DNA from: Heterobasidion occidentale
Lineage: Eukaryota > Basidiomycota > Agaricomycetes > Russulales > Bondarzewiaceae
Direction: 5' to 3'
Length of the DNA: 64,000 bases
Assembly: GCA_039111635.1 (NCBI GenBank)
Contig: JBCAQO010000011.1
Location: 1,116,001 to 1,180,000, forward strand
Shown here: positions 10,800-38,911 of the stretch, piece by piece
How positions within the stretch are numbered: position 1 is the first letter of the stretch
Layout: each line of letters begins with the position of its first letter
Program-made: the position numbers and the translations under genes
The notes under the pieces: model-generated
Database searches by the model: none
Told to the model about the DNA's origin: nothing
Seen by the model: only the letters and a program-made list of their open reading frames with translations

Positions 10800-11987
10800 T
10801 CAACGTCCCATTTCATTGTTCTGCGAATCAACTAAACACCATAGCGCTTCGAGGGCTTGATCATCGCCAACATCATATGGCAGCGTCATCCGAACTGGCT
10901 TATACAAATCCCCATCTTCGAAGGTCGGTTGTACGTAGTTCATAGGTTCCTCATACCATACTTCAGGCAGAACGAAGAGCAGTCTCAATACCCTAAGTTC
11001 CCTGGCAAAGCGGGTCCAGATATGCGACCATTGGCGTGGTGCTCCTTGTTCCAAGTCTTCGATTGCAATTCTGCACTCCGTGAGCCACAGTTTCCGCAAA
11101 GTTTCTTTATGGCGTACAATGAAATCTTCGACGTGGGTGTCACCATTGAACAAGATCCTTTTCAAAGAGAGGCACTCGAGCGCGGGAAAATTCGCCTGCG
11201 AGAAATCGAGTCTGGGTACAACGCCAACGTCTATGTCGCTGTGGAGTGTGAGCGATGTGAGGGAGGGTGAGAGAGAGCTCAGCATGCGGTGCTGGATCGC
11301 CTGCTCCCAAAACTCGACAAACAGAACCCCACAGCGAGGCTTTCTCTCATAGTGACCAAAAGCTACTTCGATGGAGAGAGAGGCTAGCGAACTAAAGAGG
11401 CTTCCAAAGGAAGGGCAATCGTAAACGAAGTTGTACATTGCAGTTATGTTTTTGATGGTGAGAGAGGTAAGAGAAGGCAGGGGCGATCGGCTTGATATTG
11501 CAGAGAGGATGATCCACTGCAGACGCAAAATCTCCCGGGACGGATGGCGAGGCATCGTGAGAAACGACAACTTCAGGATTTTGAGTCTCGGAAGATCGTG
11601 GACACGGGCGAACGAAGAAGCGAGGGATTCTAGTACGACCTCTAGATTCAACACCGCCTCTCGTTCAGTTTCTAGAGGCATTTGGCATTGTATACTCAGT
11701 CCCTACCCGCGCCAATATGATCGAGCAGACTTACCAATTTGAGGTTCGAATTGATAGACCTCTTCAAATGCTATTGCTTCAATGACCTGAGCAATCGTGT
11801 CATGCTGGAGCATCTCGCCGAATCCTATAGCACTCGCAAGGGTGCTCTCGACTGTGACGTGTCGAAAGACGTGCCGCGTGGCCACCGCGCAGAACGTCTT
11901 GTTCAATGTTCGAATACGAGACAAGTCCGAGCGGTGGGGAATCTTATCGACAATGGCATCGAGAAGTTCATAGGGTAAGGAATTCAT
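10800..11987 (-). CDS. F-box-like protein, family copy A
   Basis: Member of the expanded local F-box-like family (copies A-G). Two exons, 11987-11735 and 11671-10800, are separated by a 63-nt intron, giving 374 residues. The N-terminus is an F-box-like motif (NSLPYELLDAIVDKIP, then LNKTFCAVATRHVFRHV), which in known families binds Skp1 in an SCF ubiquitin ligase. The rest is leucine-rich and repeat-like (FARVHDLPRLKILKLSF, SLTSLTIKNI) with the family's most conserved block (FSQANFPALECLSL...FIVRHKETLRKLWL). The C-terminus (YKPVRMTLPYDVGDDQAL) is most like copy E at 37.7 kb. The reading frame is intact. Substrate unknown. Confidence 0.75.
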
Positions 11988-12431
11988 GAACAGTCCTTGA
12001 GTATTGATGATGTGGGCTAATGGTGGTCAGGAATCAGGATTGGACCGTCTTGAAGTAGGCTGAGCAATATCAGATATGTAAGAAAGCCCGATTGGCAATG
12101 AGCATGGCGAATTTCGTGACTTGAGAGAGTCAGAGAGAGCAAGGAACTTACGCACTTTCCACACCTGCTCATGCACCGCACTGCCGGCAACATCCGAATC
12201 GTCAACTCATCGTTATCCCAAGAACTTCCCCAGTATGCTGCGTCTTTCGTATTCTTGCATATTCGACGGCACGTGGGTGACCAACTCGTCCCGAGCACAG
12301 TTTCTCTCCGCCCTAAGCGCTAGCGATTAAAGTTGGCGCATCTCACAAATTTCAGAAGAATTGAATGTGAGGAAACTAGTAAGGATGGTTACATCTGACT
12401 GCATACACGTTTACCGACTGAAAGCAGTACC
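11988..12431. other. 5' flank of copy A, with a block repeated near 36.0 kb
   Basis: No gene is visible. Around 12183-12235 the sequence matches, in inverted orientation, the block at about 36003-36061: shared words include CATCCGAATC and TTATCCCAAGAACTTCC. The block therefore belongs to the inverted duplication that also carries F-box copies A and E. Confidence 0.6.
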
Positions 12432-14070
12432 TCAATTTAGGAATACCTGATTTAACCAATCCGGAATTGTAGTCTGCATTTGCTCTTGTCGTGATACGTT
12501 TGCATATAGGCCCGCCCGTTTCTCTTCATCCACCCACGCATCGTGTACTGTGTCGTAAGAAATGCCATCTCCCTTCGAGGTATGCTCGTCATCGCCCTTC
12601 AAGTTATGTTCGTCATCTCCCTTCAAGTCATGCTCGCCATCTTCATCAGCATTGTCATTGCATTCTAGGTCGTTGACACTGATCTCTTGGTGATCGTCCT
12701 GGTTCCCAATCTCATCCTCATCGTCATCACCTCGTCGATCTCTGGGCTGAGTCTCCCTGTCCTGCTGCGCGCACGCATCACTGTCCCGTTTGCTTCCATC
12801 CCCGTCGCTGACATAGTCGTCGCGGGCCCCGCCTGTGTTACTCTCGCTATTGTTCTCATTAGGATCGTCAACGTCAACGTCACCGTCATCGGCGTCGTGG
12901 TCGTGGTCGTGATCAATATCAATGTTGTTGTGGGATCTGGAGTCGTCTTTTTCCTCGTCAACGCTGCCGTCGTTGCTGAGTTCACAAACTTCACCATAGT
13001 CCTGGCTTCCACGTCCGTCATCGCTTTCCCCGCTCCCACTAGGGACAGAAAGAAAATCGATGATAGCAGTGGGCCATTGAACCCTTTCCCATAGCGTAAG
13101 CATCATGAACGCGTGTCTTTGTAGGGCGGAAAGGGCCAAAGCAGCCCTAAGATTGCTACGGATCGGGGATTCTCCGCTTGAATTGAATGAGCTGGGTCGA
13201 TCTGCGCCAGTCATAGGTATGCGATCGACTATACACGAGAGATACGCATAGGACAAGGTGCAATTAGACGTAGTCGCCATAGCTGGAGACGCAGTTGGAT
13301 ATGGAATGTGAGCAACGATGACCAGACCATCGGCGTCGTACAGTATTCCAAATATCATGAAGCATGGGGGTAGGGCGGAAGAAGAAACAAATGGGAGAGG
13401 AACCTTGATTTGAACATCTTGCTCGCAACGAAGACACCAGTTCAATAGATGCGCGTCCAAGCTTGATTGTATCATCTGAGAGAGATCACGAACTTTCTGA
13501 TCCATTGACGTCGGAGGGATTCTGGAAGACGTCGGACGAGAAGACACGTGCGAGGGCCACGGAGAAGGCCCCTTCATTCCTACGAGAAGTGCAGGTTCAA
13601 GAAGGTTTGCCTTCATGAGTTCTATGGGAGAGGGAGAGGGATTGAAAGAATCCATCAGAAGCCCAAATGCTTCCAATGGAGATCCACTGGTTCCCTGAAG
13701 CGGCGGCGGGAAGTCCAACTGGAGCTTACTGTACGTGATGAGTTGAGATCAGTCTTGGATGAGAAAGAACTCACGGAACTAGCGCGCAGCCTGGGGTTGT
13801 CAGAAAAAAACTTGGAATTGCAAATGCAGCATTATCTTCATCTCCTGGATACGTGACGATCTCGAGAAAGAATGGTAGAGCGTAGAAAGAATTCTTTGAA
13901 AATGGTGGGTCATCTTCCGATCGAGGGACAGAAGATTTGGGTGCGCGAAGTAAGAAATCTGGAGCGAATGATGAAAGATCATCATGTTTCGTTGCAAGTT
14001 GCGTGTCTGAGAGGGTAGTCATTTGTTTGTCGATGGGCTGCAACCAAGACATCAAGGCGGCTGAGTGCAT
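12432..14070 (-). CDS. hypothetical protein with long acidic His/Asp-rich tail
   Basis: Unrecognised. Two exons, 14070-13775 and 13728-12432, are joined across a 46-nt intron (GTGAGT...GTACAG), giving 530 residues. The first 300 residues look folded, with hydrophobic stretches such as PCFMIFGILYDADGLVIVAHI and ALALSALQRHAFMMLTLWERV. From about residue 330 the protein is strongly acidic and low in complexity (DIDHDHDHDADDGDVDVDD), ending with three tandem repeats of the type EHDLKGDD. There is no signal peptide. The long frames on the opposite strand at 12687-13094 are shadows of the acidic codons. The acidic tail could bind cations, histones or basic proteins; this is a guess. Confidence 0.6.
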
Positions 14071-14591
14071 CCATTCTTGCAGATTCCACGCAGTTGGCCT
14101 TCGAACTGGCTTTTGAAATTTGTCACTTTATTGGATGATTGCCATTCTGACGACGCAACACACCTTCCATTCCTCTGGTATGGCAAACGAATGAGAAGTC
14201 CAATGAAGTTTGAAATCTGCAAGGAAATCGAGTTGTGTCGAACATGCCGCGGCGATGCTTGAGATCAGTAAGTCAGTTGTCCCAACATAAGACCAATTCC
14301 TAGTCAAAAAACAAAGTCATGTTCGTCATCGCGAAGGGGCCACCGGAGAAAGCGAGTACGATTCGTGATTACCGGACCCAGTCACCCCAGCTCGAGCACA
14401 TAGCCTTTCTAAGCTGACTTGAAACGAGTCATTCATCTCGATGGAACGCGTTTCCATGCTCGAAAATACTGGCGGAAGTACGGTCGTGGAGATGGAAAGG
14501 AGCTTTTTCTGGTAGCACTGCGCGTTTGTGGGGTTCTGAGAAAATACGATCCGTTAGATAAGGTATAATTGAGAGTAATCGATAAACAGAT

Positions 14592-14661
14592 GTCACGCGG
14601 CGTGACTGGTATACGCTTCTTCTGCAGTCTTGCCACTGTCAGGCTGACAGTGGCAAGACTG
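14592..14661. repeat. two palindromes just upstream of the 14678 start codon
   Basis: 14592-14606 is a 15-bp palindrome (GTCACGC, central G, GCGTGAC). 14625-14661 is a perfect 37-bp palindrome with 18-bp arms and a 1-nt centre; part of the left arm (GTCTTGCCAC) is repeated again at 14661-14670. The larger one ends 16 nt before the ATG at 14678, so it may form a cruciform in DNA or a stable hairpin in the 5' leader. Confidence 0.8.
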
Positions 14662-14677
14662 TCTTGCCACAACCGTG

Positions 14678-16175
14678 ATGCCTGTCCTGATCGAAAACAC
14701 GCATCGTGCAATTTGTCACACTATTGAAGAGTGGCATCATCTCTATGGGATGAGCCCTGCTAAGCCGGGTAGCGCTCGCGCTTCGGATAAAGTACCACCA
14801 ACGCTCCAGTACGTAGCAAGTCCATCTTCACTGTTCTCCAAGAATACTTACACAGACGCTGTAGGCCACTTACAGATGGTCCTTACAGCTGGCTATTCGA
14901 GAGGAACCGCCTGATTGGTTATGATGGAAGAGCTGGGCTGAGCATTCAGAGCATAGTCAAGGTGATACAATCGCACGACATATACGCAATGCAACCCCTC
15001 GAGGTCCCGGAGGATTGGAAGGCAAGTAGGCCTGGTTCTTCGATTAAATATCCTCATTTCATTGCTTCCCCAGGACGCTCGCTCAAACGAGACTCTGGAC
15101 ATTACGGCTGCGTTGTTACGGACTGCGTTGTGCCAGTATGTGGACAATGTGCACAGTGCGTGGCCCGGCACCCCTGTGCTATTGTATAGGCCAAGGTCGC
15201 ATTTTGCGACTATACCTTATCCACAGCCAAATCTAACTCTGCACGAGTTGCGAGATCCGCACATGGCTTTGTACAGCGTCGAGTGGACCATCTTCAAGAT
15301 TTTGTGTAAGGGAAATAGTGGCGTGACCGGATACAGCGCGCTCGGTCCAAAGCTGTTTTACGATGCCCTATTACCTGCTATCTGTCATCAAATTCGAGGT
15401 TGCAGAGTACTAAGGTTTGTCCTATGCGCATTCTTATTTGACAGCAAGACCTTACTGAGCTGTTTCTAGATCCACTCCTATTGCCTTTCCATCCTACTCT
15501 GCCGATCATGGCTCTTCGACTTGCCTAGATTTTATCTGTCAACCCTCGATAAACGATGCCCTCAATGATCTCCCTGATGGATATGTACCGGTCCTATTTG
15601 CCGCCCATCATGTGGACACACTCCATCCATTCGAACTTGAGGAAATCTCGTACGTTCGTCCAGGACCACCGGAGCTCATGCCAGACAGAACACTGGGCCT
15701 CGTCAAACTGGCGAAGGTTTTTGAGCCTTCGTTACAGCTACTTGTTATGCACTTGACGAAGAAATATCGAATTAATGATTGTCAATGGCGCTCCGAGTGG
15801 AATGTAAGTAACTGCCCACGTCATCCGAAGAAAAAATCGACTGACGCGCCACCCTAGCCAATCATCGGCAAGAAAGATCCTGCATGGTCGAGGCCTCATG
15901 TGCCGGAGAAATATTTTTTCTTCGGCATGAATTACTCCGAAATCTCATGCATCATATACACCTTCTTCCCTCGCTATAAAGTAACCTCATCTGGACGAGT
16001 AGAGTGGGGATTCTGTTGCTACGAGGCATATTACCCGTGGCCCACTGGCGGGATCGACCCATCGTATCGTGTACACTTGATCAACACATTTCTGAGGATT
16101 CAACGCCATACCATGGAGCTTGTCGAGCTTTTCAAAGATGTCTCTCGTTCATTAGGGAACGCCAAACTCGTGTAA
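14678..16175 (+). CDS. uncharacterised fungal protein, family member 1
   Basis: I do not recognise the family. Splicing gives one long frame: the ATG at 14678, a donor GTACGT in the codon series for PPTL, acceptor CTTACAG before HWLFERNRLIGYDG, a GC-AG intron at 15022-15073, a third intron before STPIAFPSYSADHG and a fourth before PIIGKKDPAWSRP. The end is KDVSRSLGNAKLV. No signal peptide or obvious catalytic motif is visible. It is paralogous to the next gene: both have a PEDW/PDSW element, then a helical region, a WPG motif (SAWPGTP / LLWPGKS), and a C-terminal block pairing an aromatic-rich strand (FFFGMNYSEISCIIYTFFP) with a W-x-F-C-C motif. The protein is probably cytosolic or nuclear. 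Confidence 0.6.
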
Positions 16176-16428
16176 TACCACATCTGTAACAACATATCAT
16201 TGAAATCACCTGTCTGAAGTAGTAAGCCCTCGACGTTTGAGTAGCTGAGTAATGTCCGATCGATTAATAGCAATGCGGCTGTTCATAGATCTTGATACCA
16301 ATCAGCCCTACATGCAACGCATCGCTCCACGCTGCCCTCATACCTCATACTATCCCCTATCATCCAGAGGATTCGGAGACGATCACCAATGTATCCCGTC
16401 TCTGAGCTAGAGCAGTAAGCAATCAGAC

Positions 16429-18792
16429 ATGAAGCTATATCATATGGGGAATCTATCATGCGCTGACATCGTATTGTCCAGACACAACCTTCGTATAGCC
16501 CAGGACCGCGTGCCAAACATCCATGGACAAGAAGATATACAAACGAACCTGAATGTAGAGAGGTCGCGCATCTACGAGAATCCCGAAGCATCTGGCCTCG
16601 TGCGTAAAGAGAGGGCCGATCCGGCGGACGACAAATATTGGGACTATATCAACGATCAGTCTGGGGCCAAAGTATGGCAGCGCGTTCATGGGGTCTTATG
16701 GCGCATCACACGCGCAGTAACTTCTGAAGGGAACAAATCAGCGATAACCGCTAGGTAAGTAGTTTCAAACTTCCGAGAACGCTTCACACTATTTAGCGTA
16801 ATTAGCAATGTTCGCCAGTCAGATCTGATTCTCCAATACGGTTGGAAATTTATCAACCTCAAAACTAGTCCGGGTCCAATTTCAAAGCGCATTTGGCAAT
16901 GAACCTGGAATTCACTCATCCTTCAAGTCCGTTCGCACTCGCGCACAGAAAATCCTGAAGGATGTAGTGAAAAAGACGCTAGTCATACCGGATTCATGGC
17001 CAGTGCGTACCTTAATTTCCCCTTTCTTCTGATGCCTGTAAATTCTCCTCATAGAACATGTCGGATAACGACCTGAACATCAACGATGCACACGAAGTCA
17101 CACAAGCTGTACTGAAGGCCCACATCATAATGCTAGAGAACGATCTCGGCAGTGACATCATTCGTATCGACGACATCGACAAATATCAAGATCCAACGAC
17201 TGAAGAGGAGGCTTCGAGCGAGGATGTGATCACGCTCAGATTATGGGACAATACGAGCTCCAACGCAGACACTGAAGAAATGCAGCTGTATATCGCATTT
17301 AATGCGTTATACACGCTGCTGTGGCCCGGGAAATCTAGTGTTGCCTCGGAACTCGCTGTTGAACGTATCATCGGCATCATCATCGCACCACATCTTGAGC
17401 TCAGAGACTGTGAAACTTTGTCGTACGTGCTATACCGCTTTTTGAATTGTCAATGCCAATTAACAGTAACATCAGAGGACAGTCTGTGAGATCGTCCCTG
17501 ATCCTTGGATGCTTTGGCTCTTTTGCTTCGGCCGATATCTGCACAAAGATGGTCTTCAAACCTCCAGTCGACACTGATGGTAACATCCTCCCGAAATATG
17601 ATGATATGACTGTTCTTCAACCTGTCATATTTGGTGCTGAAGCGAAGCAGAGTCTCAGCATTCATGAAGAGAAGCCCACTCCACCTCCCTCTAGACCCAT
17701 TGGTAACAAAACGATGCATCGCGCCTCAGCTCAGCTTGCCTTCTTATTTCAAGGAACATTAAAGATCTTTATTGGCCACCTTTGCGAGCTCGCGGAGTCT
17801 GATATCGATAAGAACTTGAAAAGTACATTTCCGGGCTGGAATTCATTGTCGCTCGAGGCACAGCTGAAAGAGAAAGTGTCCCGGGTCAATTGGACTGGCG
17901 TGGTGGTATGTGTGATCAGAAATTTTACCAAAACAAAATTGCTAAACGCGATGTCAAGATCCCTGACTGGATGTTCTGCTACGGCATCGGATACGATTTT
18001 GCCGGTTTTACCATTTATACCTATTACCCCGCTCTCCTCGTCATAAAAGGAAGGCCTCAGTGGGTGTTCCATTGCTGCCAGATGCAAACTGACTTCGAGG
18101 GAGTGTTTCAACATTATGATGCAGGAGACCGTGTCCAGGCTGTGAAGACTCTGCTGGCGATGCGAAGACATTCTCATTTCCTTGCCAAAACCCTCAGAGG
18201 TCCTAATAAGCTACGTTTCCCAGAGCAATTCATAATGGTGGTCAAAAAAATGGAAGAGCAGGATAGAGCGAAGAAGCACGACCAAGCGGAGGCCAGAAAA
18301 CAGAGTCGACAGACGAAATCTCAAAATGATGTCAAAAACTCGTCGACGAAAGCTGCGTCCTCGAAGGCCGAGAAAGTCGTTCCAAGTGAGGAGAGGGAGG
18401 GGACCTCTTCCCAATCAAAGGGAAAGCAGGCTTCACGATCGCGGAGAGAGAACATCAAGCTCGGAACTATTATGGAGGATGAAGAGGAGGCGAAGAAGGT
18501 CTACAGGAAAGCACCCAAGCGAGATGGGGTAGAACCTGTGGAGGACACGAAGGGCCAAGGAGTGGAAAGGAGAAGGGGGTCTACCTCGAAGGCCAAGAAG
18601 GCACAAAAACAGGACGAAGACGGCGAGTATATCTCGACGAGCAAGGATCACGTGAAGGAGGGGTACGAGGCCCCGAAAACCAGGAAAATTCACATGAAAT
18701 ATAGAGAGGATAGCGAAAGAGAGACTGGTGATGCAACTGGTGACGGAAAGGCAGCAGACGATCTCAGTGGAGATTCGAGCGTTGGCGCGTAA
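16429..18792 (+). CDS. uncharacterised fungal protein, family member 2, with basic tail
   Basis: Tandem paralog of the gene at 14678, on the same strand with about 250 bp between them. The well-supported part begins with LVIPDSWP, continues across an intron (17003-17055) into MSDNDLNINDAHEVTQ, then through introns near 17424-17464 and 17907-17959 into IPDWMFCYGIGYDFAGF and W-V-F-H-C-C, matching member 1. Unlike member 1 it carries about 200 extra C-terminal residues of Lys/Arg/Glu-rich low-complexity sequence (KKMEEQDRAKKHDQAEARK, RKAPKRDGVEPVEDTKGQG). The first exon (16429-16754) and the join to SAFGNEPGIHSSF are uncertain because a long intron with an AAAG acceptor has to be assumed. The tail could carry nuclear-localisation or nucleic-acid-binding signals. 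Function unknown. Confidence 0.55.
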
Positions 18793-18825
18793 GGATCGTA
18801 TACTGCGTACTTGTCCTTAGATAGA

Positions 18826-20390
18826 TCATATCAATCCATATGCATGCAGTGCCACAGACGAAATGGCAACTAACAACAATTTCTTGAAATGAAGGCATCT
18901 GTGTCGGGAGTATTCACCACACCTTGGCGTCCATAACCTGAGGGGCGTATGAGCAGGGAGACTCGATCCACCATTCGCCTTCACACACCACCACAGCATT
19001 CTCGGCGACTTCAGCTGTACCTTAGCCTTTGACATATCATCTTCCAGACACGATGGTGAGGTAGCAAGGTGCTCCAACTCATTGCTGACGGTCTCGAATC
19101 TGTCAGCGAGTGCTGGGTTAATGGCCCGAAGTTCCAGGACGGGCTGCCTGTAACCCTTCATCCTGGACCAAAGCAAGGCTCGTCCTTGCTCCAGCATCTC
19201 GATCGCGACATCCAGCTGGCCCTTGCCAATAGCAGACAATGCAGCATCAACTGCAAGCGAAGAAGAGTTCCTAGTGAGGGAGTTCCACTGCAGCTCCAAG
19301 CTGGGACTGATGGCAAGACCACGCTGGACAAGGGCCAAACATTTTACGTATGCTGAAAGAAGAGAGCTGTGTTGGAACTCGCGAGCCGACCGTACCCACG
19401 ATTGCGCAGTTGAGAGCTGCTGCCTCACGTCAGTAAATCGGCTTTCAGTTGCAATGGCAAACATATGGAAGGCCTCGTTGAGACCATCCTTTCTGGATAT
19501 TGCTTGGAAGCGAGCCAGCAAGCTGCTAGAAAGACCAGCAAGGCAAAATATATGTAGAGAAGAGCCGGCAGGACATATTGCAAGTGCTTCGCGCTGATAT
19601 TCTATGGACTTTTCAATATCTTGCAGCTCCCCTGCACGCTCGAACCGAGAATGCAAGCTGTTTGCGAGGTTGTTGAGGATCTCAGAGCGATAAGAAGAAT
19701 GAAGGGGTCTGAGAGACAGCGCTTCGCGATCCAATTCTATCGCTTCCTCCAGGTCCTGCAGCTGCCCTGTCTGCTTGAAACGAGACCGCAAGTCGATTGC
19801 GAGGTTGAATAGAGAGTTAGAGCGACCAGAATGACCAAGTCCTGCTTCTGTCTTGTCCCCTCGAAACGAGACCACAGATGAATTGCGAGTTTGTTGAGGG
19901 AGTCGAAGCGATCAGAATGGCCAAGGGGATGGAGAGCGAGCGCTTCGCGATCGAGATGAATGGCTTCATCGAGATCGTGCGTCGGCTCAGTCTGATCAAT
20001 GTTCAAGTTATGATCCATCCGTGACATTCAGAGTGATTAGAATCTCTGGAAAGTGCTTGACAACAGCCGATGAAGACTTACCATGCTGATCACGATGTCC
20101 TCTGTTCACTACCCGCAGTCCAAGTATGGTGTTTCCTCAACTGATTACGACGGACGATCAGACTATCGAAAAGATGAAAATGAATTTCCGAGAGTCACAT
20201 ACCAGGCTATGTGCGATGGGTGTATCGTCGGTCGGAAACCTCGAGGTTCCCGCTTACAGCAGCGTTCAGTGTCTGTAGACGCCGAAGTCCACATATCCCA
20301 ACATTTCCTTGATATATCAAAGCGCTCGAAATCGGCTGATATGTCACCATCTTTAGGCAGCGCTTTCCGCACGCGGTGAGAATCAAGCCA
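18826..20390 (-). pseudogene. TPR-CHAT gene copy lacking the CHAT domain
   Basis: Inverted, truncated partner of the TPR-CHAT gene at 31.9 kb. An exon starting after GATCAG on the minus strand (near 19995) encodes TPR-type repeats (DLDEAIHLDREALALHPLG, LQDLEEAIELDREALSLRP) and then the conserved linker (ARFQAISRKDGLNEAFHMF, VAIEMLEQGRALLWSRMKG, RFETVSNELEHLA). Between about 19830 and 19860 part of a repeat is missing and the frame shifts. After SCLEDDMSKAKVQ the similarity ends and the remaining residues do not match CHAT, so the protease domain is absent. Upstream non-repeat exons (20163-20390) still align at the DNA level with 31627-31800. It could still make a TPR-only protein of about 350 residues from 19875. 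Confidence 0.7.
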
Positions 20391-20408
20391 GCTATATATA
20401 TACGGCAT

Positions 20409-21045
20409 AGATCAATGTCTGAACTTGAACGAACACGTCGACAGGGCGATTAGAGTGTCGGCATTGGCCGGAGTGACGCCATTTGGGTAGGTTTGGTAGC
20501 GAGAAAGCATCGTAAGCCCAGATAGAGTCGTCACAGCTCGTCGCGGACAACGAGAAACTCAGAAGCCAGGCAGTGCTGCTTTCTGATCATCGCAGCACCC
20601 TGAGATGCTGCAGCTTCATCATCTGAGACTGTAAAAATAAGACCAAAGTCATCCGGGCAGTTGCAAGGAGGATGGTCATAGCTGCATCGACTCAAAGATG
20701 AGGGTGAGGGGAAGACAAGTACAGTGCGCGAGCTAAATCTTAGGGCGAGATGTCCTCGGGGGATTAGCACAGAGAGTACCAAGCAACTTGGTTGTGATGC
20801 TTTATGTTTTCTCGTAGGTGCGTACCATCCCTCTCTCCTCTCTCCGCCACTCTCTCCACCCCAGCACCATACGCGCGAACGACTCCACCGAACCCCACTG
20901 GCGAATGGCGCGAGAGCACCGAGATAGAGCTGATTGTGCTGCTCTTGCCGCCGCCAATGGCCTTGCCGTGCGTGTCACACATCCGCTCCTCTGCTTCGCG
21001 CGCACAGCCGCTCCTATCCATGCGTGTGGCTCTCTACCTCATCCC
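20409..21045. other. intergenic between TPR fragment and F-box copy B
   Basis: No supported gene. Near 20930-21010 the sequence resembles, in inverted orientation, the 3' end of copy D at 30920-30975 (both contain TAGGAGCGGCTGTGCG). This places it inside the inverted duplication. Confidence 0.5.
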
Positions 21046-28074: not shown

Positions 28075-29328
28075 ATGGATTCCTTGCCCTACGAGCTCCT
28101 CAAAGCCATCGTCTACAGAGTCTCACGCCGCAAGGATGTATTGGGTATTCGAATGGTAAACAAGACGTTGTGTGCGGTGGCCACGCCGCGCATCTTTCGA
28201 AGGGTCAACATCATGTGTACGCTTAAGAGCGCCACAGGATTCGGCGAGATCATAGAGCGCGACATCGCTCAGCACGTCGAAGTAATCTCATTCACCGGTA
28301 GGATTGACTTCTTCGCTGATGGTCAGTTCGTTCGGTCCTATTGGTGCTATCGGGCCTTGATGCTGAGTGTCCAAACCCATACCCAAATACGTCTAGAAAA
28401 AATACGCGAGGCGAATGCGCTGCGTGTTGAGAAATCCCTCGTTTCTTCATTCGCTCGCATCCATGAATTTCCGAGGCTCAAGTCTCTCAAGCTGTTATTC
28501 TCCATTGTTTACGATCCGCCTGCATATCGTATACCTCTTCAGTGGACCATCCTCTCAGCAATATTAGGCCAATCGCCTCCGCCTAATCTTTCCTCCTTAG
28601 AAATCCAGGGCCTGATGGCCTTCCGCAGCCCCCATTACGAACTCCCTTCGTTTGCACGTCTAATCAGCTCAGTAACTCGCCTCCACATTGCACCTAATCT
28701 TGGTCTCCTACACGATTCCCGCTTCCGGGATCCCTTTATTGCTTTTTGGGAGCAGGTGATCCAGCTTGACGTTCTGAGCTTGATCTCACACTCCCTCACG
28801 TCGTTCGTACTTCACAGCAACATCGACGTCGGGATTGTACCCAGGCTCGATTTCTCGCAGGTGAATCTCCCTGCACTCAGGTCCCTATCATTGGAAAAGA
28901 TCTTGTTCAACGAGGAAACGCATATTGAGGATTTCATTGTACGCCACAAGAAGACTATGAAGAAATTGTGGCTCACGGAGTGCAGAGTCGCGGTGGGCAA
29001 CGTGGAGCGAAACGCACCACGCAAGTGGTCTCAAATTTGGGAGCACTTCGAAGGAGAATTGAAGGCATTGGTGCTACTTGACGTGCGGTCCGAACTGCAC
29101 TATGACTCTAGTGACGACTCTATCATCATTGGCCCCCCCGCCGGCCCTGACGATACTGTCAACCAACACGTCAACCACGCGATACCCATGGACTATGTAC
29201 AGCAGGATGTAGATGCCGGGTACTCGTACAAACCCATTGAGATGTATTTTTTTCGCGACAAGCAGGCGCTTGAAAAGCTGCAGGTTATGGTTGGTCTTCA
29301 GGCGGCAGAATTGGAGCACAAGGACTGA
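28075..29328 (+). CDS. F-box-like protein, family copy C
   Basis: Starts at ATG 28075 (MDSLPYELLKAIVYRVS, then VNKTLCAVATPRIFRRV), with the leucine-rich body (FARIHEFPRLKSLKLLF) and conserved block (FSQVNLPALRSLSLEKIL; HIEDFIVRHKKTMKKLWL). In its paralogs the intron lies after the first 80 codons. Here the matching segment (28322-28396, GTCAGT...GTCTAG) is 75 nt long with no stop, so the gene is open whether or not it is spliced: 392 residues spliced, 417 unspliced. It sits about 330 bp after secreted-protein gene 1, the same order as secreted gene 2 and copy E. The role is presumably a substrate adaptor of an SCF ubiquitin ligase; substrate unknown. Confidence 0.75.
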   Translation: MDSLPYELLKAIVYRVSRRKDVLGIRMVNKTLCAVATPRIFRRVNIMCTLKSATGFGEIIERDIAQHVEVISFTGRIDFFADGQFVRSYWCYRALMLSVQTHTQIRLEKIREANALRVEKSLVSSFARIHEFPRLKSLKLLFSIVYDPPAYRIPLQWTILSAILGQSPPPNLSSLEIQGLMAFRSPHYELPSFARLISSVTRLHIAPNLGLLHDSRFRDPFIAFWEQVIQLDVLSLISHSLTSFVLHSNIDVGIVPRLDFSQVNLPALRSLSLEKILFNEETHIEDFIVRHKKTMKKLWLTECRVAVGNVERNAPRKWSQIWEHFEGELKALVLLDVRSELHYDSSDDSIIIGPPAGPDDTVNQHVNHAIPMDYVQQDVDAGYSYKPIEMYFFRDKQALEKLQVMVGLQAAELEHKD

Positions 29329-29676
29329 GGTAGAGAGTTGCGGGCACAAATCCTTCGACGGGAGCGGGCGGCGGCGAGCAGAAGCGAAGCGAAGTCGTAG
29401 ACGTGTTTGAGGGCAGGACGGCGGTCAGGTCATGGTCTCACAGCAGTTTACTTTTGAGTGTATACATTCGTGGAGAATGGTGTTGGAGTGAAAAGTACAA
29501 AGGCATGGATGAAGCGAGCCTCGAGAGCGAGGAATGGTGCAGAGCAAGCTGGACTCCGGGCCCGGGTCACGGGCTTTGAACCTAAACTCATCGCTCATCG
29601 AACTTCAACTTTTCCTGCAGCGGTTTCGCTCAATCATATTCCCGCCGACATCGACTACCTCGCTCTATCACTTGCT

Positions 29677-31087
29677 ATGAACTCCTTACCATACGAACTC
29701 CTCAATATCGTTATCGATGGAGTTCCCGATCGCAAGGACTTGGTTCAGGTTCGAGCAGTGAACAAGACGTTCTGTGCGCTGGTCACGCGGCGCATCTTCC
29801 GATACGTCATGGTACAGAGCACAGTCAAGAGTGCCAGAGGATTTGACGAGATCCTAGGGCGTGACGTGATCGCTCGATCTATCGAAGCGATCACGTTTAA
29901 TGGAGGCGTAGAGACATGATGAGGGTAAGTTTGTTCGCTCACATTGAAGCGAGTGGAGGACTATGTGTTCAAGGCTAGATACCTCTGATAACAGAATACA
30001 AGTCGGACTTGAACGACATCATACTAAAAGCCCTCACCTCTTCATTTTCACGCCTCTACCAGCTTCCGAGACTCAAAACCCTCGAGTTGTTGATGGGTGC
30101 GTCGCGCTATGCAGCGAGCGCGAATTGCCAATGTATCCAGTGGCCCATCTTCTCTGCGCTATCAAGTGGATCGCCCCGGCCGACTCTTACCACCCTCGTC
30201 ATCAACAGATTGGCTCCGTTGTACAACCCCGTTTACGATCTTCCTTCGTTTGGGGATCTCTTTCCATCGCTGGCCAGTCTCTCCGTCATGACGGCTTATG
30301 ATGATTTTTTTGGCACAGAGCCTCGCTTTCAGGGTTCCTTTGTCAAATTTTGGGAGGAGGCAATTCAGACTCGCATGCTCGGCTCTTGCTCACACTCCCT
30401 CACCACGCTCAGGCTTCAAGGCCAAGCAGACGTCGGCGTTGTGCCTAAGCTCGATTTCTCGCAAGCGAATTTTCCCGCGCTGGAGGCCCTTCATTGCAAA
30501 AAATCTTGTTCAACGAGGAAACGCATGTCGAAGATTTCATTGTACGCCACCCAGGAACCTTGCGGAAACTATGGCTCGCGGATTGCGCCATAGCGGTAGA
30601 AGACTTGGATGAAGGAGTCCCACGCCAGTGGTCGCATATTTGGAAGCGATTTGCACGGGAATTAAAGGGACTGGTATTGCTTATCGTCCGGTGCGATCCG
30701 CTCGATGAAGATGCCTTTACCACCGACTCTGTTGGAGACCACCACTCTTTAGGATATATACAGCCAAGTTCCCGTCCTTGGCAGACGTATGAGCCATGCA
30801 ATCTACTGTCATATGGTTTTGACGATCATATGGCTCTTATAGAGCTTCGGCAGTTGGTTCGGTCGCAGGCGGCAGAACGGCAGAAGTGCGAGGTTGAAGT
30901 AGAGGGTTGCGCGCGTGTTCAGTTGGGTAGGAGCGGCTGTGCGTGCCAGGCAGAGGAGTGGATGTGTGCGAGAGTAGTACAGACAAGTCCGTCAAGGTCT
31001 TTTCGCGCCATATTTCGAGAATGGTGGTGTGGGTGTGAGTGGAGACGTTCGTGTTACTGGGCTGGCTGGAGATGGCAGCGGAAGTGA
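29677..31087 (+). pseudogene. F-box-like family copy D, disrupted
   Basis: Starts well (NSLPYELLNIVIDGVP; VNKTFCALVTRRIFRYV), but the first exon reaches an in-frame TGA (NGGVET stop, near 29917) before the position where copy B splices. The second exon begins near 30000 (SDLNDIILKALTSSFSRLYQLP) and loses one T near 30493, where ALEALHCKKS replaces the expected ALEALSLQKIL. The correct frame resumes as KILFNEETHVEDFIVRH through LRKLWLADCAIAVEDL and stays open to 31087, past the family's usual end. It is the sister of copy B on the opposite strand. Two independent lesions make a pseudogene likely unless the sequence has errors. Confidence 0.75.
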
Positions 31088-31189
31088 AACAAGGGACAGG
31101 AGGGATGATGATACAGTGTAAAGAGGAAGCATAAAGCATTGCGTTCAAGTTGCTAGATACGCTCAGCGCTGCACCCTCGAGGAGTTGCT

Positions 31190-31420
31190 AGCTCTGCAAT
31201 TTCCATCACATAATATCTTCCTCGCACCCTCGACAGTCCTTGCCTGAAACCGCTCAAAATATCTATCTGAATCAGACGGTGAAGCTGGAGCATCTCACTA
31301 AGCATGCAGTACTCTCTGCCATCTGTTTTTCTCGTTGTCCGCGACGACTCAATGCACTGCTTCGAGCCTCCCGTCATGATTCTGAACTTCCTCAAATGAC
31401 GTCACGCGTCACCCCTAACA
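31190..31420 (+). repeat. diverged direct repeat, copy 1 (partner at 36083)
   Basis: Begins with AGCTCTGCAATTTCCATCA, as does 36083, and continues with matching stretches (TCTGAATCAGACGG/TCTGTATCAGATGG, GCATCTCA, GTGATTC/ATGATTC-type words, AACTTCC-CAAATGACGTCA/AACTTCTCCAAATAACGTCA). No reading frame is conserved. It lies upstream of the TPR-CHAT gene. Confidence 0.6.
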
Positions 31421-31964
31421 TTTCCCCTTCCACCTGGCCGCCCAGATTTATCGGTCCAGCCGGGTCGCACTCCGACACCTCTTCTCCTCTGAGACCTGCC
31501 CCTTCCTCCCACAGCATCTCAGGTCCGTGGTCTGAAGCCCACCAAACATCGTCTACTTACTGTCAGCGTAGTCGCTCAACTTCAGTCATCGAAATATGCG
31601 AGATACATAGTTAGCTTCCTTTTCACCGCGTTTGGAAAGCGCTGCTACGGGCTGCTACGGGAGGGTGTTATATCGGGTTAGATCTTGAGCGCTAATATCA
31701 AGGAGATGTTTGGACATGTGGACCTCGGCGTCTACTGGCACAACGCTGTTGTACTCGTACGCCGGAACCTCGAGGTCTCCGACCAACAATACACCTATCC
31801 CACAACGGCTGGTAGGTTTATCTTCCTCTATTCGATAGTCTAGGCAATACAGGGTATCTTGATCAGCATGGTAAGTCTTCACTGCCTGTGATCAAGTATT
31901 TCGCAGAGGTTCTGACCATTCTGGACTTCGCGGATGGCTTGTAACTTGGCATTGATCAGACTAA

Positions 31965-34835
31965 GCCCACGCATCATGATCTCCATAAAGCCATCCGTCG
32001 AGATCGCAAAGCACTTGCTCGCCGACCCCCTGGTGATCATGGTCGCTATAAGTCCCTCAACGACCTGGCAACTTCCCTCTGGGCTCATTTCAAGCGGACA
32101 AGACGGGAGAAGGATCTGGATGAAGCAATAGAACTGTGGGACGAAGCGCTTGCTCTTGAACTCCCTGGCCGTGTTTTGAACCGCAGCTCTCTCGATGACC
32201 TGGCACTTGGCTTGCGCACTCGTTTCGAGGAGTCAATGAGGCTGCAGGACCTGGAGGAAGCGATAGATTTGAATCGCGAAGCGCTGTCTCTCCGACCCTG
32301 TGGTCATCCTTTTCGCTCCAACTCTCTCATTCAACTCGCAAAGGCCCTGTGTATTCGTTTCAAGCAGACAGGGAAGCTGGAGGATCTGGAGGAATCGATA
32401 GATTGTGGTGGTGAAGCGCTGTCTGACCATCCCCTTGGTGATTCTAATCGTGCCAGGTGCCTCAATACCCTCGCAAATGTCTTGCATTGTCGCTACGATT
32501 ACATAGGGCAGCTGCAGGACTTGGAGGAATCGATAGAAATGAATCGCGAAGCACTGTCTCTCCAACACCCTGGCGATGTTTACCGCTCCTACTCGCTCTT
32601 CACCCTCGCAAACGTTTTGCGCTCTCGTTTCATGCAGACAAATCGGGCACAGGACCTGGAGGAAGCGATAGAATTGTATCGCGAAGCGCTGTCTCTCCAT
32701 ACCCCTGATCATTCTGGTTGCATCCAATTCCTCAACAACCTCGCATGTAGCTTGGATATTCGTTCCCAGCAGACAGGGCGGCTGCAAGACCTAGAAGAAG
32801 CGATAGAAATGCATCGCGCAGCGCTGTCCCTACCCCTTGGCAATTTCCTCGCTCCAAATCACTCATCAATCTTGGAGCAAGCTTATATTATCGTTTCCAG
32901 ACCACAGGGCAGCTGCATGATTTGGAGGAAGCGATAAAATTAGTCAATGAAGCGCTGTCTCTTCCACCCCTCGATCATCATTCTCGCTCGGGCAAACTCT
33001 ACAACCTCGCAATTTTATTGCAATCTCTTTTCAAGCAGACCGGGCAGCTGCAGGACATTGAGGAGGCCGTGGAATATCACCGGGAAGCACTTGTAACATT
33101 TCCTTATGGATCTTCGATGCATATATCTTGCCTCGCTGGTCTTTCTCGCGCTTTGTTGGCTCGCTTTCAAGCAATTTCTGAAGAGGATGATTTGAACGAG
33201 GCTTTCAATATGTTTGCCATTGCAACTGAAAGCCAATTTACTGACGTGAGAGAGCAGCTCTCAGCTGCGCGATCGTGGGTACGGTCGGCTCGCGAGCTCC
33301 AACACGATTCCCTTCTTTCGGCCCATGTACAATGTTTAGCCCTCCTCCAGCGCGGCCTCGCCATCAGTCCCAGCTTGGAGATGCAGTGGAACACCCTTAC
33401 TAGGAACTCTTCTTCGCTTGCAGTCGATGCTGCATCGTCTGCTATTGACAAGGGCCAGCTGAACGTCGCGATCGAGATGCTGGAGCAAGGACGAGCCCTG
33501 CTTTGGTCCAGAATGAAAGGCTACAGGCAGCCCGTCCTGGAACTTCGAGCCATTAACCCAGCACTCGCCGACAAATTCGAGACCGTCAGCGATGAGTTGG
33601 AGCACCTTGCTACCTCACGATCGCGTTTGGAAGATGATGTGTCAAAACGCGTTCCACGATACACGACTGCGTGGGATGATCAATGGATGAAACAGCGTGT
33701 CCTGTCGGATGAATGGAACGAGATCGTGGAATGTATCCGCCAGATCGATGGGTTTTCAGATTTCTTGCAGCCAGTGCCATTTGTACGTCTCAAGCGCGCC
33801 GCGGCGGAGGGGCCTGTCATCATAGTCAATGTGTCTTCGTACCGATCAGACGCTTTGGTCCTTCGAGACGACACTTCTGATCCTACCCTTGTTCGCCTCG
33901 CAAACTCAGTATTTGACGAAGTCGGAAATTTGTCCAAAGTGCTCGGCCAAGCTCGAAGACGCGGTGATAATACTACCCTCGCTGCGGTGATGCAGGATGT
34001 TTTGCGCACACTGTGGAAACTCATTGCTCAGCCAGTGGTGGATCAACTTCGGACTCTTGAAGTTGCCGAGAACTCCAGGATCTGGTGGTGTCCGACTGGA
34101 AAGCTGTGCTCTCTCCCGCTGCACGCTGCTCAACCCCTAATAAACGGCGAACGTGGTCTTCCGGATCTTTATGTATCTTCCTACACTCCTACGCTTTCCT
34201 CACTCATTACAGCAAGGGAGAACATACCTGCAATGCGCTCTGACTACCCCCAACTCCTGACTGTCGGTCAACCAGACGACTCCCTACGGTGGGTAGATGC
34301 GGAGTTGGAAGAGATAAGGAAACTTGGGAACTTTGTGGATACCATTGTTGAGAAACAGGCGACGCCCGATGCAGTGCTCGAGAATCTTCAAACTCACCCA
34401 TGGGCTCACTTTGCTTGTCATGGTCATCTAGACGATGAGCAACCGTTCAAGTCGTCGTTCAAGCTCTATGGAAGCTCCCGCTTGACTGTGATGAATATCC
34501 TACAGTCCCGCCTTCCCAATGCAGAGTTTGCTTTCCTGTCTGCTTGTCATAGTGCTGCGGGCGACTATATCCACACCCCCGACGAAGTCCTGCACCTAGC
34601 CGCGGCGATGCAATTCTGCGGGTTCCGGAGTGTTGTCGGGACGCTGTGGGCAATGGCGGACGATGATGGACCAGTCTTGTCTCGGGAGTTCTACAAGTAC
34701 ATGTTCCGCCACAATGATCCAACGAAGGTGGATTTCAAGGATTCTGCGGTCGCTTTGAGATTTGGGATCAAAGCGTTGAGAGATGCGAAAGTCCCGACCC
34801 ATCGATGGGCTGCGTTTGTGCACATCGGTGCCTGA
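31965..34835 (+). CDS. TPR-CHAT protein (caspase-like CHAT protease), frameshifted
   Basis: The main exon follows an acceptor at GATCAG (31959-31964). It encodes about seven 42-residue TPR-like repeats (pattern LxxLAxxLxxRFxQTGxLQDLEEAIxxxREALSL), a linker (ARFQAISEEDDLNEAF; EQGRALLWSRMKGYRQPVL) and a C-terminal CHAT domain. CHAT is a caspase-like cysteine protease fold; the His is in HFACHGH (34411-34431 region) and the Cys in FLSACHSAAGDY (34534-34560 region), so both catalytic residues are present. Near 32827-32860 the frame shifts within a repeat: the upstream frame stops at 32937 while the repeat resumes as SLINLGASLYYRFQTTGQL in another frame. Conserved non-repeat exons probably begin near 31706, but the true ATG is not resolved. 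In bacteria TPR-CHAT is the protease of the type III-E CRISPR effector; fungal homologs are linked by inference to regulated proteolysis or cell death. Confidence 0.75.
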
Positions 34836-36082
34836 TGGACGTCGGATGGTTATTTGTTCGTATATCAGATTTGTTTTCTATGGCGACCTTCTGCTGACGT
34901 GCGTGCCGCCAACTCATCTCAACAGGTTCATGCTTGAAGAAGAAAGGCGTCCTATGAAGTGTGTATATTTCCTCGTATTACTCTTTGTGAACCCTGTTGC
35001 AATTTCCCCGTCGCTTCGCATCAGAACCTGCACTTGCTTTGTTGACTCGCATGGTTCTTCTGCACTCGCTGTCCAGTCTTATTGCTTTGCTTCTCATTCA
35101 CTGTTTTCGCTTTGCTACTTGCTACTACCAGCTCAGTCATGTCGATGTTTTCCTGTTCACGATATCCATGTTTTAGCCCTTTGCACATCGTCTGCTTTAT
35201 GCACTTTTTGTCTAGAACTTTCGATATCAATGCTCTCGATACATGTCAGCGGTATCTATCGCGGTTGATCATTCATATTTCCGATTTTCGATCTGGAACA
35301 TACATTGTGAACGATAAATGATACATGGGGACATACCAGTCATAGTAGTGGGTCGACTATGCATCCTGTTATTGACTGCTTGAGAGGTGCCCATAAGCAC
35401 TCATTTGGGCTGTTTACCCTGTAGGGTTGTAGATACAGATGTAAGAATAATTCCCATTGCATTCAAGCGAGTATGAGATTATAGGTCGGGGAACTGGAAG
35501 ATGCATACAGGCTGATATACGCACCTCGCGACCACCGACAAGGCCTGATTTTGTTGGCGAGTGCATCGCTCCTCCGTCGGAGGGCAATGAAAAGATATGA
35601 GGAAAGCCTGAAGGGCTGTGCAGAGATGATGAACGAGCCGTGTGCCTGTGAGCTTCAGGGCGAGCTCTAGAAAAGGATCGAAAGTGCACCTTCCATTGGG
35701 CAAATTTTTCGTTGGGCGACAATCTGATGTGGTCGCTATCTCTGAGTGTGAGCAGTGCGTCCCGGACGCTCCAATAAAGAAATTGCGCTCAGATCCATAG
35801 AAGTAGACTCAGCTGACGATGGGAGCTTCTGCGTGCGAGATACGTTGGTTTTGAGGACAGGCCTTCGAGGGGAAGCGGCCGATGTTCTCAATGCACTCGG
35901 ATCTGAGCCAGCGCAGGCACTGTGATGGAAATCCGAGACTGGAGTTCATTGCAAGGGCTTGATTGGGACCAGCTGGGAACCTGATTGTCAAGAGCGCGGA
36001 AGTTCTTGGGATAACGGGGAGTCGACGAAGGAGTTGATGATTCGGATATTGCCGAAACGTCGGCTCCTTCCAGAGCTCCTTC

Positions 36083-36390
36083 AGCTCTGCAATTTCCATC
36101 ATACGATGTACACGTCTTCCTTCCACCCTCATCGAGGCCTCGCCTTCCAGTCGATGCAGCTACGACAGTCCTCACTTGCAACCACTCGAATGACCTCTGT
36201 CTGAAGCTTATCTGTATCAGATGGACAAGCTGCAGCATCTCAGCAAATCTGCGATGATCACAAAGCACGCAGCACTCTCCAGCCTCTGATTCTTTCGCTG
36301 TTCACGACGACCCTATCTGTACTGCTGAGTTTTTGATGTGCCCCTCGTCGTGATTCCGAACTTCTCCAAATAACGTCATCCAGTCCCCTT
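36083..36390 (+). repeat. diverged direct repeat, copy 2 (partner at 31190)
   Basis: Starts with AGCTCTGCAATTTCCATCA and follows the same word order as 31190-31420, with extra bases inserted. It is probably an old duplicated upstream flank. Confidence 0.6.
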
Positions 36391-36739
36391 CCACTCGGAC
36401 CTCTCTCGCCCTCTCAAACTCCTCAACTCCTTGCCGCCCAGAATCATCGGCCCTGCCTGGCTTGCTCTCCGATCCATTCACCCTCCCACAACGCTGTTCG
36501 CGTCCGCTTACACTTTATCCATATAAACACCTTGACTTGCGGCCCATTGCATACTCCGGCCATCGCCAGCGCGCCAAAGGTCGCTTGCTTCGAAGTCTAG
36601 AGGGGCGTCATACGCTCAACGCGGCGCGCGGCACTGTTGACACATGAATATGCAGCGGCACGCACAACAGGGGCCGGAGTCTCCTTCTACAATGTCTCCC
36701 GCTGCAGTTGACTTGTGCACGCACACGAGCAAATAATGG

Positions 36740-36852: not shown

Positions 36853-37496
36853 ATGAAGTTCTCTGCTCGCCTTGCTCCGCTTGTGATCCTCGCATGTCTC
36901 ATAGGCCGCGCATCTGCGCAGAACATTGCGATTGGATACCCACCCGACGGATTCGCCGTGGCTCCTGATAGCTCCCTGATCGTCCAAGTCAACCGCCCAG
37001 TACGCATGCGTTCTCACCCCTTTCTTCCTCTCACCTGTACTCAACGCTCACTCCACCTTTCCGCAGAACTCGCTCACCGGCTCGCAGGAGGTCGCCATCG
37101 TCATCTCTCTCGCGCATTGCTCATCGTCGGACGTGCCCCACTGCCCGAATCCGACGCAGCTCCTCGGGCCCACTCTCTACGCTGGGCCGTTTGACCCACA
37201 ATACCCCCCCTTTCGCACGCCGCAGGATGTGCCGCAGCAGAATTTCACGGTGACCGTGCCTGCGGCGACGCAGAGCGGCACAGCAGTGCTGACTGTCACG
37301 CATTTGAGTCTCGTCGGGGTGAGTGTCAATCAAAAAATGCTCTTTTCCTCATCCACGCTTTCACTTTGCATCTTCGTTTTGTTTGAGGCGTCGATATGCG
37401 ATAGATGGACGTTGACGGGTTATTTTCCCATGACAGGCCGGGTCGTACCCGTTGCTCGAGTTCAAGAACATCACGCTCGATGTGCAGCAGCAATGA
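36853..37496 (+). CDS. small secreted protein 2
   Basis: Paralog of the gene at 27128, with the same three-exon structure: 36853-36999, 37067-37318 and 37437-37496, all phase 0, 152 residues. The signal peptide differs (MKFSARLAPLVILACLIGRASA) but the mature region is nearly the same (QNIAIGYPPDGFAVAPDSS, NSLTGSQEVAIVISLAHC, DVPQQNFTVTVPAATQSG, FKNITLDVQQQ). Exons 1 and 2 have identical lengths in both genes (147 and 252 nt), while intron lengths differ. It lies about 240 bp before F-box copy E, as secreted gene 1 lies before copy C, so the pair moved as a unit. Function unknown; extracellular. Confidence 0.85.
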
Positions 37497-37731
37497 TTAG
37501 TCTGAATGCACATTCACGACTCTAAGACCTTGTGCATTGTGTCTCCTTTTTCCTCCTTTGACTGGTACTCTGGTCAGGAATCGAGTCGAACACTTTCTCT
37601 ATGACGAATGATGTACGTAGGGCACGTGCTCTTTCGAGTTAGCACCCATCGCTGATCGGACTTGATACATCTTTCATCCAAATCCCATCAATCATCTCAA
37701 AATCCAGCGTCGTCAACGCTAAGGAGCTGTC

Positions 37732-38911
37732 ATGGATTCCTTACCCTACGAACTCCTCGATGCCATCGTCGACAGAGTTCCCGATCGCATGGACTCGGGC
37801 CAGATTCGAATGTTGAACAAGACGTTTCGGGCGGTAGCAACGCCACACGTTTTCCGACAAGTCACAGTCAAGAGCATCCTCCCGAGCACTCTAAGATTTG
37901 GTGAGGTATTGCGGAGCGATGTGGCCCAGTTTATCGAAACAATCGTATATATAGAATTGTCTACATACAGTAAGTTTGTCCCCTCATATTGAAGCGGGTG
38001 GGGGACTATGTATTCAAGGTCAAATGCCTCTACTGCTACCACAATATAGAGAGGATGCGGCTTCACATGCTGAGGCCTTGATGGAAACCCTCAGTCCTTC
38101 ATTCGCCCACATTCACAATCTTCCAAGACTCAAATTCCTGAAGTTGCACTTTCGCGCAACACCCCATGCGCAACCTATGTGTCACCACCGGACCGTCATC
38201 TCTGCGTCATTGAGCCAATCGCCCTTGACTCCCTTACCATTCATAGTTCATAGTTTAACTCCACGGGAAAGTATTCAAATTCGTCCTTCGTTTAGGAGCC
38301 TTTTTGGGTCACTCGTAGGCAGTCCATGTGTCCAAATTGCTGAGGTAGAGCCCCACTTTGGGAATCCCCACGTGGATCTTTGGAAGCATATGTTCGGCTT
38401 CCCCTCAAGCTCTCTCACATCGCTTACGCTTCACAGCGAAGCGGATGTTCGGGTTGTACCTGGACCCGATTTTTCACAAGCAGATTTCGCCGCGCTCGAG
38501 TTCCTCTCTTTGCAAAAAATCTTATTCAATCAGAACACCCACATCGAAGATTTCATCGTACGCCACAAGGAAACCCTAAAGAAACTGCATCTCAAGGAGT
38601 GTAGATTCGTGATAGTGGACGAGGGGATAAGAGCGCCACGCCAGTGGTCACATATCTGGACCCGCTTTTCTGGAGAACTAAGGGCGATGGTGCTTCTCGT
38701 TGTGCAGCCCCAATCGCGTTATAAACAACCTGGCCACGAGTTCGTCGACTATGGGAGACCCCTGAACTACGTACGGCCGCACTTAGAACCTGGGAACTGG
38801 TATAAGCCGGTCACTATGCCGCTGCCATATGATGTCGGCGATGAGCAGGCTCTTACAAAGCTTCGACGTAAGGTTCATTCACAGGCGGCAGAACACGGAG
38901 ATATAGACTGA
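37732..38911 (+). CDS. F-box-like protein, family copy E
   Basis: Two exons, 37732-37969 and 38052-38911, with an 82-nt intron (GTAAGT...ATAGAG), give 365 residues with no disruption. The F-box-like start is DSLPYELLDAIVDRVP, then LNKTFRAVATPHVFRQV. The body follows the family (FAHIHNLPRLKFLKLHF) but the middle third is more diverged than in the other copies. The conserved block is FLSLQKILFNQNTHIEDF and VRHKETLKKLHLKECRF. The C-terminus (YKPVTMPLPYDVGDEQAL) pairs it with copy A. It is presumably an SCF adaptor; the ligand is unknown. Confidence 0.75.

Follow-up and report, generated by a model that had tools for sequence, protein, structure and literature searches.

The window analysed here is a stretch of 64,000 nucleotides of contig JBCAQO010000011.1 (G000:C11:1116001-1180000) from the wood-decay fungus Heterobasidion occidentale, within a 45-Mb assembly of 159 contigs. 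It holds a cluster of F-box/leucine rich repeat (LRR)-like genes (A to E), tetratricopeptide repeat (TPR) genes (T1 and T2) and genes for secreted proteins of the Nis1 family. As families, F-box/LRR proteins supply SCF ubiquitin ligases with substrate adaptors, and the TPR-CHAT proteins comprise caspase-like proteases tied to fungal regulated cell death. In our reading, to which we give a probability of about 0.8, the left and right parts of this cluster are the two arms of an inverted segmental duplication of old date, which belongs to a known kind of process. The genes are as follows.

10803..11998, minus strand: F-box/LRR-like gene A, the left outer copy; its relative P0013 is 90% identical
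18926..20444, minus strand: TPR gene T1, truncated and lacking the CHAT domain; its homology with T2 stops at 19028
20976..22281, minus strand: F-box gene B, a decayed copy
27016..27657, plus strand: Nis1-family secreted-protein gene before F-box C (Pfam PF19271)
28075..29328, plus strand: F-box/LRR-like gene C, a single open frame of 417 amino acids; relatives P0001 (89%) and P0002 (84%)
29675..30991, plus strand: F-box gene D, sister of B, with a frame change near 30.45 kb
31558..34835, plus strand: TPR-CHAT gene T2 (TPR_10 2.1e-24, CHAT 2.2e-33 in Pfam), on two overlapping frames
36891..37525, plus strand: Nis1-family secreted-protein gene before F-box E (Pfam PF19271)
37728..38911, plus strand: F-box/LRR-like gene E, the right outer copy; its relative P0014 is 86-89% identical

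Pfam was run on 30 stop-to-stop frames, then on 5 and then on 3 more, and among these frames only TPR families, CHAT, Nis1 and one ICMT/PEMT/ERG4-type frame came out above the cut-offs. An F-box-like match is found at the N-terminus in two of five pieces (E 0.0055 and 0.013; 16.9 and 15.7 bits, below the cut-off of 24.3). The model of protein C (mean predicted local distance difference test score, pLDDT, 70.7) finds its top fold matches in the LRR parts of NLR-type proteins, and Foldseek also returns Skp2 (1fs2, E 2.3e-3) and FBXL17 (6w66, E 3.4e-3), with TM-scores of at most 0.42. By the weak N-terminal F-box-like match of these two pieces and the LRR-like fold predicted for C, these proteins may resemble F-box/LRR proteins of the Skp2/FBXL type, but no Pfam family reaches its cut-off here. 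Twelve relatives were found for protein C, and the six that carry a source name are all from Heterobasidion irregulare (Bondarzewiaceae, Russulales). T2 resembles the TPR-CHAT caspase-like proteases of fungi in having TPR repeats and a full-length CHAT match, both above the Pfam cut-off, but it is read on two overlapping frames; a single repeat spacing in it is 131 nt instead of 135. T1 had been called a truncated TPR gene from the start, and rightly so: homology to the right copy stops at 19028, and Pfam finds no CHAT match in frame 18829-19911, which sets this gene apart from the fungal TPR-CHAT proteases. The stretch 18939-19013 weakly resembles the CHAT part of T2, a likeness equalled by 7 of 500 randomised sequences.

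The two arms, 10.53-22.71 and 29.51-39.13 kb, have only minus-strand matches in common, and in a sensitive comparison (E<=0.1) of 8.0-23.5 against 26.5-42.0 kb all 41 of 41 matches were on the minus strand. In the self-comparison the inverted pairs are B/D with 70% identity (1318 columns), A/D with 71%, A/E with 65%, A/C with 67% and T1/T2 with 84% (756 bp); the matched spans are 20976-22278/29675-30968 for B/D, 19028-19783/32891-33646 for the TPR genes and 10852-11998/37721-38853 for A/E. Since genes that point outward on both sides will by themselves produce minus-strand matches, the gene bodies were masked. The minus diagonal foreseen in the preliminary description persists beyond them: eight matches remain, all of them inverted, and seven are colinear. 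Four of the colinear matches lie in the inner half (22633-22669/29512-29548, 20753-20842/31095-31183, 20601-20626/31272-31297 and 20538-20584/31301-31347) and three in the outer half (12199-12229/35998-36028, 12185-12208/36031-36054 and 10526-10576/39076-39125). When the right arm was reversed without complementing it, no masked match was found, and six other stretches of the genome, one of them a TPR-bearing stretch of contig C3, gave 1, 1, 0, 1, 0 and 0. The axis, placed at 25-26 kb in the preliminary description, lies at about 26.0 kb when taken from the midpoints of the inner anchors; the outer anchors put it at 24.1-24.8 kb.

The evidence is densest around the inner pair of F-box and TPR genes, where pieces of one type of 5' flank recur. 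The 5' flank of a TPR gene on contig C6, at 520954-520605 and with no F-box gene in it, serves as the reference.

20498..20703, minus strand: TPR-type 5' flank between B and T1; matches 31272-31347, 36138-36310 and C6:520664-520605
22479..22705, minus strand: TPR-type 5' flank upstream of B; matches C6:520954-520790 and 520656-520608, with 37 bp common to the D side
29512..29549, plus strand: short TPR-type 5' flank piece (38 bp) upstream of D
31095..31404, plus strand: D-T2 intergenic stretch, common to the B-T1 intergenic stretch and containing a TPR-type 5' flank piece
36138..36472, plus strand: another TPR-type 5' flank, the third, behind which no TPR gene was found

Pieces of the C6 flank are found before B (22705-22479), T1 (20567-20498), D (29512-29549), T2 (31302-31353) and the Nis1-E pair (36282-36469), and B and D therefore both stand behind a TPR-type 5' flank, a short one on the D side. 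About 245 bp of the intergenic stretch between B and T1 align with that between D and T2, with a score of 41 against a maximum of 20 in 1000 randomised sequences. Both families are large, with at least 69 match pieces genome-wide for the F-box family (query C) and at least 62 for the TPR family (query T1), the latter grouped into 11 TPR places; among the matches listed, only T1 and T2 of these 11 lie within about 2 kb of an F-box match. Judged by sequence comparison, a module consisting of a TPR-type 5' flank piece, an F-box gene, a TPR-type 5' flank and a TPR gene is present twice in opposite orientation, from 22.71 to 19.03 kb and from 29.51 to 33.65 kb, with the right CHAT part running on to 34.84 kb.

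The trees agree with the pairing of B with D that had been proposed: they are sisters with 100/100 support in a tree of 15 F-box copies (leaving out copies I, J and Fp, which are near-identical to G, H and F), and their bootstrap is 99-100 in five overlapping alignment partitions with 9 copies. The groupings A+B and D+E, named beforehand as the trees that would speak for another history, are both rejected in the 15-copy tree by the approximately unbiased (AU) test (p 8.8e-48 and 2.9e-9). One detail of the earlier argument falls away, as the motif FEDV, taken as a shared C-terminus, is internal in protein B. In a tree with proteins from elsewhere (P0004 and P0011, under 60% filled, were dropped), the strict pair B3+D3 is rejected (AU p 0.0003), as is the bare A+E pair with its own relatives left outside (p 7.8e-62). 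This is because own relatives fall between the members of each pair, so the splits are older than those relatives and the pairs need not be unrelated. B has GTG at the position of the ATG of the other copies, and a 17-bp tandem duplication (21577-21610) at its frame change; the frame changes of B, D and T2 may be real decay, a missed intron or assembly indels. By raw synonymous divergence the 5' part of D is nearer to A (0.49) than to B (0.73). A mosaic ancestry of D is rejected by the partition trees, where A+D has AU p <=0.002 in all five. Between T1 and T2 (19044-19800/32874-33630, about 750 bp) identity climbs from 68-70% in the 5' part to 91-94% in the 3' part, which could mean gene conversion.

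In the outer half the resemblance is carried by short non-coding pieces.

10526..10576, minus strand: 3' flank of A; 74.5% match to 39076-39125, E 0.008
12185..12229, minus strand: rare block, left; inverted copy of 35998-36054, part of which recurs a third time at C7:651595, next to a TPR fragment
35998..36054, plus strand: rare block, right; inverted partner of 12185-12229
39076..39125, plus strand: 3' flank of E, partner of 10526-10576

A flanking block inverted between the arms had been quoted in the preliminary description, and it is indeed there, exact at 12211-12229 (minus) and 35998-36016 (plus), where 100 shuffles gave a mean expectation of 0.00. Its 25-letter pattern (23 fixed letters, up to 3 mismatches) occurs at three places in 45 Mb, with none in the control, and two of the three are the corresponding spots of the two arms. 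The match between the 3' flanks of A and E scores 24 against a maximum of 19 in 1000 randomised sequences. Matching position, block and 3' flanks speak for the proposed pairing of A with E, but A is not specially E-like (70% identity to copy K, 69% to G, 68% to E, 68% to H and 67% to D). As a clade of their own lines, A+E has AU p 0.19 in the 15-copy tree, 0.12 with orthologues (a test that dropped the nine rows B3, D3, P0009, P0018, P0019, P0020, F, P0017 and P0011) and 0.23, 0.43, 0.19, 0.47 and 0.26 in the five partitions. The pairing of A and E rests on position and short flank matches, because in the trees A+E is neither best nor rejected.

The unequal length of the arms had been put down partly to a later insertion in the left one, given as a gene pair at 14.7-18.8 kb.

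12443..18925, strand not assigned: later insert of 6483 bp; matches C11:1598556-1605376 and C11:1654096-1660972 (72-82%), as an inverted copy of each

Against each whole copy the insert falls into four colinear pieces, and a partial third copy lies at C11:1576756-1581413. Its edges are exactly 12443 and 18925 against both whole copies, which are alike beyond those edges. This bears out the later insertion, though its limits are wider than first given. The distances from these edges are 214 bp to the rare block and 103 bp to the point where the T1 homology stops; with the insert disregarded, the block and the end of T1 are about 0.3 kb apart, in the order of the right arm. The genes inside the insert match no Pfam family above cut-off; two of them have older, weaker relatives at C11:1422-1425 kb and other places (66-68%), so their family is old.

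A number of observations weigh against the duplication as we read it. The best TPR tree gives T1+T2 a support of only 61/46 and the C6 copy is equally close; T1+C6 and T2+C6 stay acceptable (AU p 0.11 and 0.35). The TPR pair alone is thus insufficient as proof of duplication, because the C6 and C7 copies are as close. Two TPR-bearing loci, on C7 and C6, give 6 and 8 masked matches in the same comparison (7 of the 8 on C6 sit on TPR-type 5' flank pieces), and one masked match between the arms, 20538-20703/36138-36310, breaks the colinear order. Nis1 is found on the right arm only. Synonymous divergence is unequal (0.52-0.73 for B-D, 0.36 for T1-T2 and 0.82 for A-E), so no single date for all pairs is shown. 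Finally, A+E is the best tree in no analysis, and the nearest flanks of A match copy G on both sides.

The last of these points lead to the strongest alternative, in which the inverted duplication took in only the inner F-box and TPR module (about 4 kb), while A and E are independent family members that settled nearby. It is a serious contender, if somewhat short of an even chance: A and E are joined in no tree, A is flanked by G-like sequence, A-E diverge more than B-D at synonymous sites, and copies of the F-box family are scattered over C11 in both orientations. On the other side, a block with only three places in the genome sits at the matching spot of both arms, the 3' flanks of A and E match where they are expected to, and the block follows T1 in the right-arm order once the insert is removed. 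Compared with a typical segmental inverted duplication, the arms here are old (65-84% identity), the non-coding anchors are only short and the extent of the outer half is less firm. The alignments and trees together indicate that the duplication is real and firmest in its inner half. The rare block and F-box A/E were probably part of the copied segment too, giving arms of 22.71-10.53 and 29.51-39.13 kb, and a single full-length event covering both halves is close to an even bet.

A second possibility is that the F-box and TPR unit was born at a TPR locus, for instance the one at C6:517-521 kb, and that two copies of it, one in each orientation, reached C11. The C6 copy is as near to T1 and to T2 as these are to each other, and the flank upstream of B has a longer match to C6 than to D. 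This origin is nevertheless improbable, given the rare block, a colinear intergenic match (20753-20842/31095-31183) that is absent from C6, and a C6 copy that has no nearby F-box match among the matches listed. A third account does without any segmental event: two families went through repeated single-gene duplications, and the minus diagonal reflects gene orientation. Both families are multicopy and outward-pointing genes do force minus-strand matches of the gene bodies, but the non-coding anchors are inverted and colinear, an F-box gene stands beside a TPR gene in the two arms only (among the copies listed), B and D are sisters in every partition tried, and the scarcity of the block contradicts anchors made of common repeats; this account is very improbable. 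That the arms arose in the assembly, by the joining of two haplotypes in opposite orientation, has next to no likelihood, for although the assembly has near-identical repeats that end exactly at gaps of 100 N, those repeats are 98-99% alike and the arms 65-84%, A, C, D and E have separate relatives elsewhere, and the sole run of N in the window (55242-55341) is outside the arms.

Between the arms lie gene C with its Nis1 gene, and a spacer. The preliminary description had left out F-box C and its Nis1 gene at 27.0-29.3 kb altogether. C falls with G/H in the DNA tree (82/91); the AU p of C+E is 0.06. The two Nis1 stretches, 27169-27734 and 36891-37492, are direct and not inverted repeats of each other (74%), and both genes exceed the PF19271 cut-off of 27 (37.7 and 30.1 bits), a likeness to the Nis1 family that means membership only. 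Nis1-like DNA at C11:1105396-1105681 and 1352005-1352290 also adjoins the F-box copies G and I, at C11:1104 kb and 1353 kb; these two copies are near-identical, lie within a 98-99% inverted repeat and may be one locus. The "secreted gene 2" of the preliminary description, which we take to be the Nis1 gene at 36.9-37.5 kb, had been regarded as a late insertion. This is not simply so, since Nis1-like DNA also precedes C and the outside copies G and I. To judge by these positions, the pairing of Nis1 with an F-box gene is either older than the array or spread along with it.

22706..26221, plus strand: spacer on the axis; G+C-rich open frame 23893-26121 with one likely membrane span (by eye)

No other long copy of this spacer is among the matches listed. 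At 23750-26000 the G+C content is 69-79%, compared with about 50% in most of the window, and there are long open frames on both strands. Inside the G+C-rich frame, a 73-bp piece (25432-25504) has counterparts of 86-92% identity at many places of the genome.

Behind T2 the similarity to C6 continues.

34860..35567, plus strand: T2 3' flank, colinear with the C6 copy (73-74%)

Two papers link CHAT proteases to gasdermins: in P. anserina a TPR-bearing CHAT protease activates a fungal gasdermin (PMC12881547), and about 19% of fungal gasdermin genes are within 10 kb of CHAT protease genes (PMC10197012). No gasdermin gene was identified beside T2, where no search with a gasdermin model was made. The idea of a gasdermin-like gene behind T2 was given up, as no conserved reading frame was seen in the stretch of this flank that is kept with C6.

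The surroundings of the cluster call for care with any copy counting here. The stretch 39458-55240 is repeated directly at 55342-64000 and on to C11:1187110 (15.8 kb, 98.6%), and the copies meet at the 100-N gap 55242-55341; this is probably an unmerged contig overlap or a haplotype pair and not a true tandem duplication. C11:1082063-1117051, the end of which is window 1-1051, has an inverted copy of about 34 kb (98-99%) at C11:1340626-1373963, which ends exactly at the 100-N gap C11:1373964-1374063. Probably this is an unmerged or misplaced haplotype or overlap, and a recent inverted duplication is possible. The stretch 44767-48135, with a copy from about 60.6 kb, has many copies in the genome that are 96-100% identical (at least 18 of them near-full-length at 99-100%) and contains a 209-bp tandem pair; it is probably a young mobile element. 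A frame at 8882-9469 on the minus strand is the one above the cut-offs for the ICMT, PEMT and ERG4-type membrane methyltransferase/reductase families.

Outside the window, A, C, D and E each have a close relative of their own (83-90%), and these relatives keep the copies apart: P0013 for A, P0014 for E, P0001/P0002 for C and P0015/P0018 for D. B is more distant from its relatives and is placed by tree only; it joins P0019 (94/89), although the identity of P0019 is 66% with B and 68% with D, and P0008 of H. irregulare (HETIRDRAFT_409859) falls on the B side of the tree (89/80). The relatives in other species suggest that the copies are older than speciation, and since the copies have separate relatives, B and D probably parted before the species did.

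A stepwise history can be proposed on this basis. An ancestral module of an F-box gene and a TPR-CHAT gene with TPR-type flanks would have been copied in inverted orientation beside itself. The left arm would then have gained the 6.5-kb insert, copied from elsewhere on the contig, an insertion that may have cost T1 its CHAT part and its 3' flank, and F-box B would have lost its frame. The right arm carries the Nis1-E pair, and the left arm is without Nis1. Such a cluster would be evolving by birth-and-death, with the left arm decaying and the right one keeping the CHAT-bearing TPR copy, D and T2 also being frame-changed. Inverted segmental duplication with birth-and-death is known from elsewhere, and the likeness lies in the inverted colinear copies, the intergenic pieces that were kept, the unequal decay and the later insertion in one arm; the process is an ordinary kind of genome evolution. 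Among the top-ranked matches of much longer literature lists, no title names this cluster.

What the locus offers, then, is a stepwise history for a cluster of F-box-like, TPR-CHAT and Nis1 genes whose growth would have come from both inverted and direct duplication and whose decay affects one side. The common 5' flank also leads to a testable idea, namely that the F-box and TPR-CHAT genes may be co-regulated. It is conceivable, though rather unlikely, that before the duplication an F-box gene had been brought into the regulatory context of a TPR-CHAT gene. This would have given a co-regulated pair of ubiquitin-ligase adaptor and caspase-like protease, possibly a cell-death module, and the inverted duplication would then have copied that pair.

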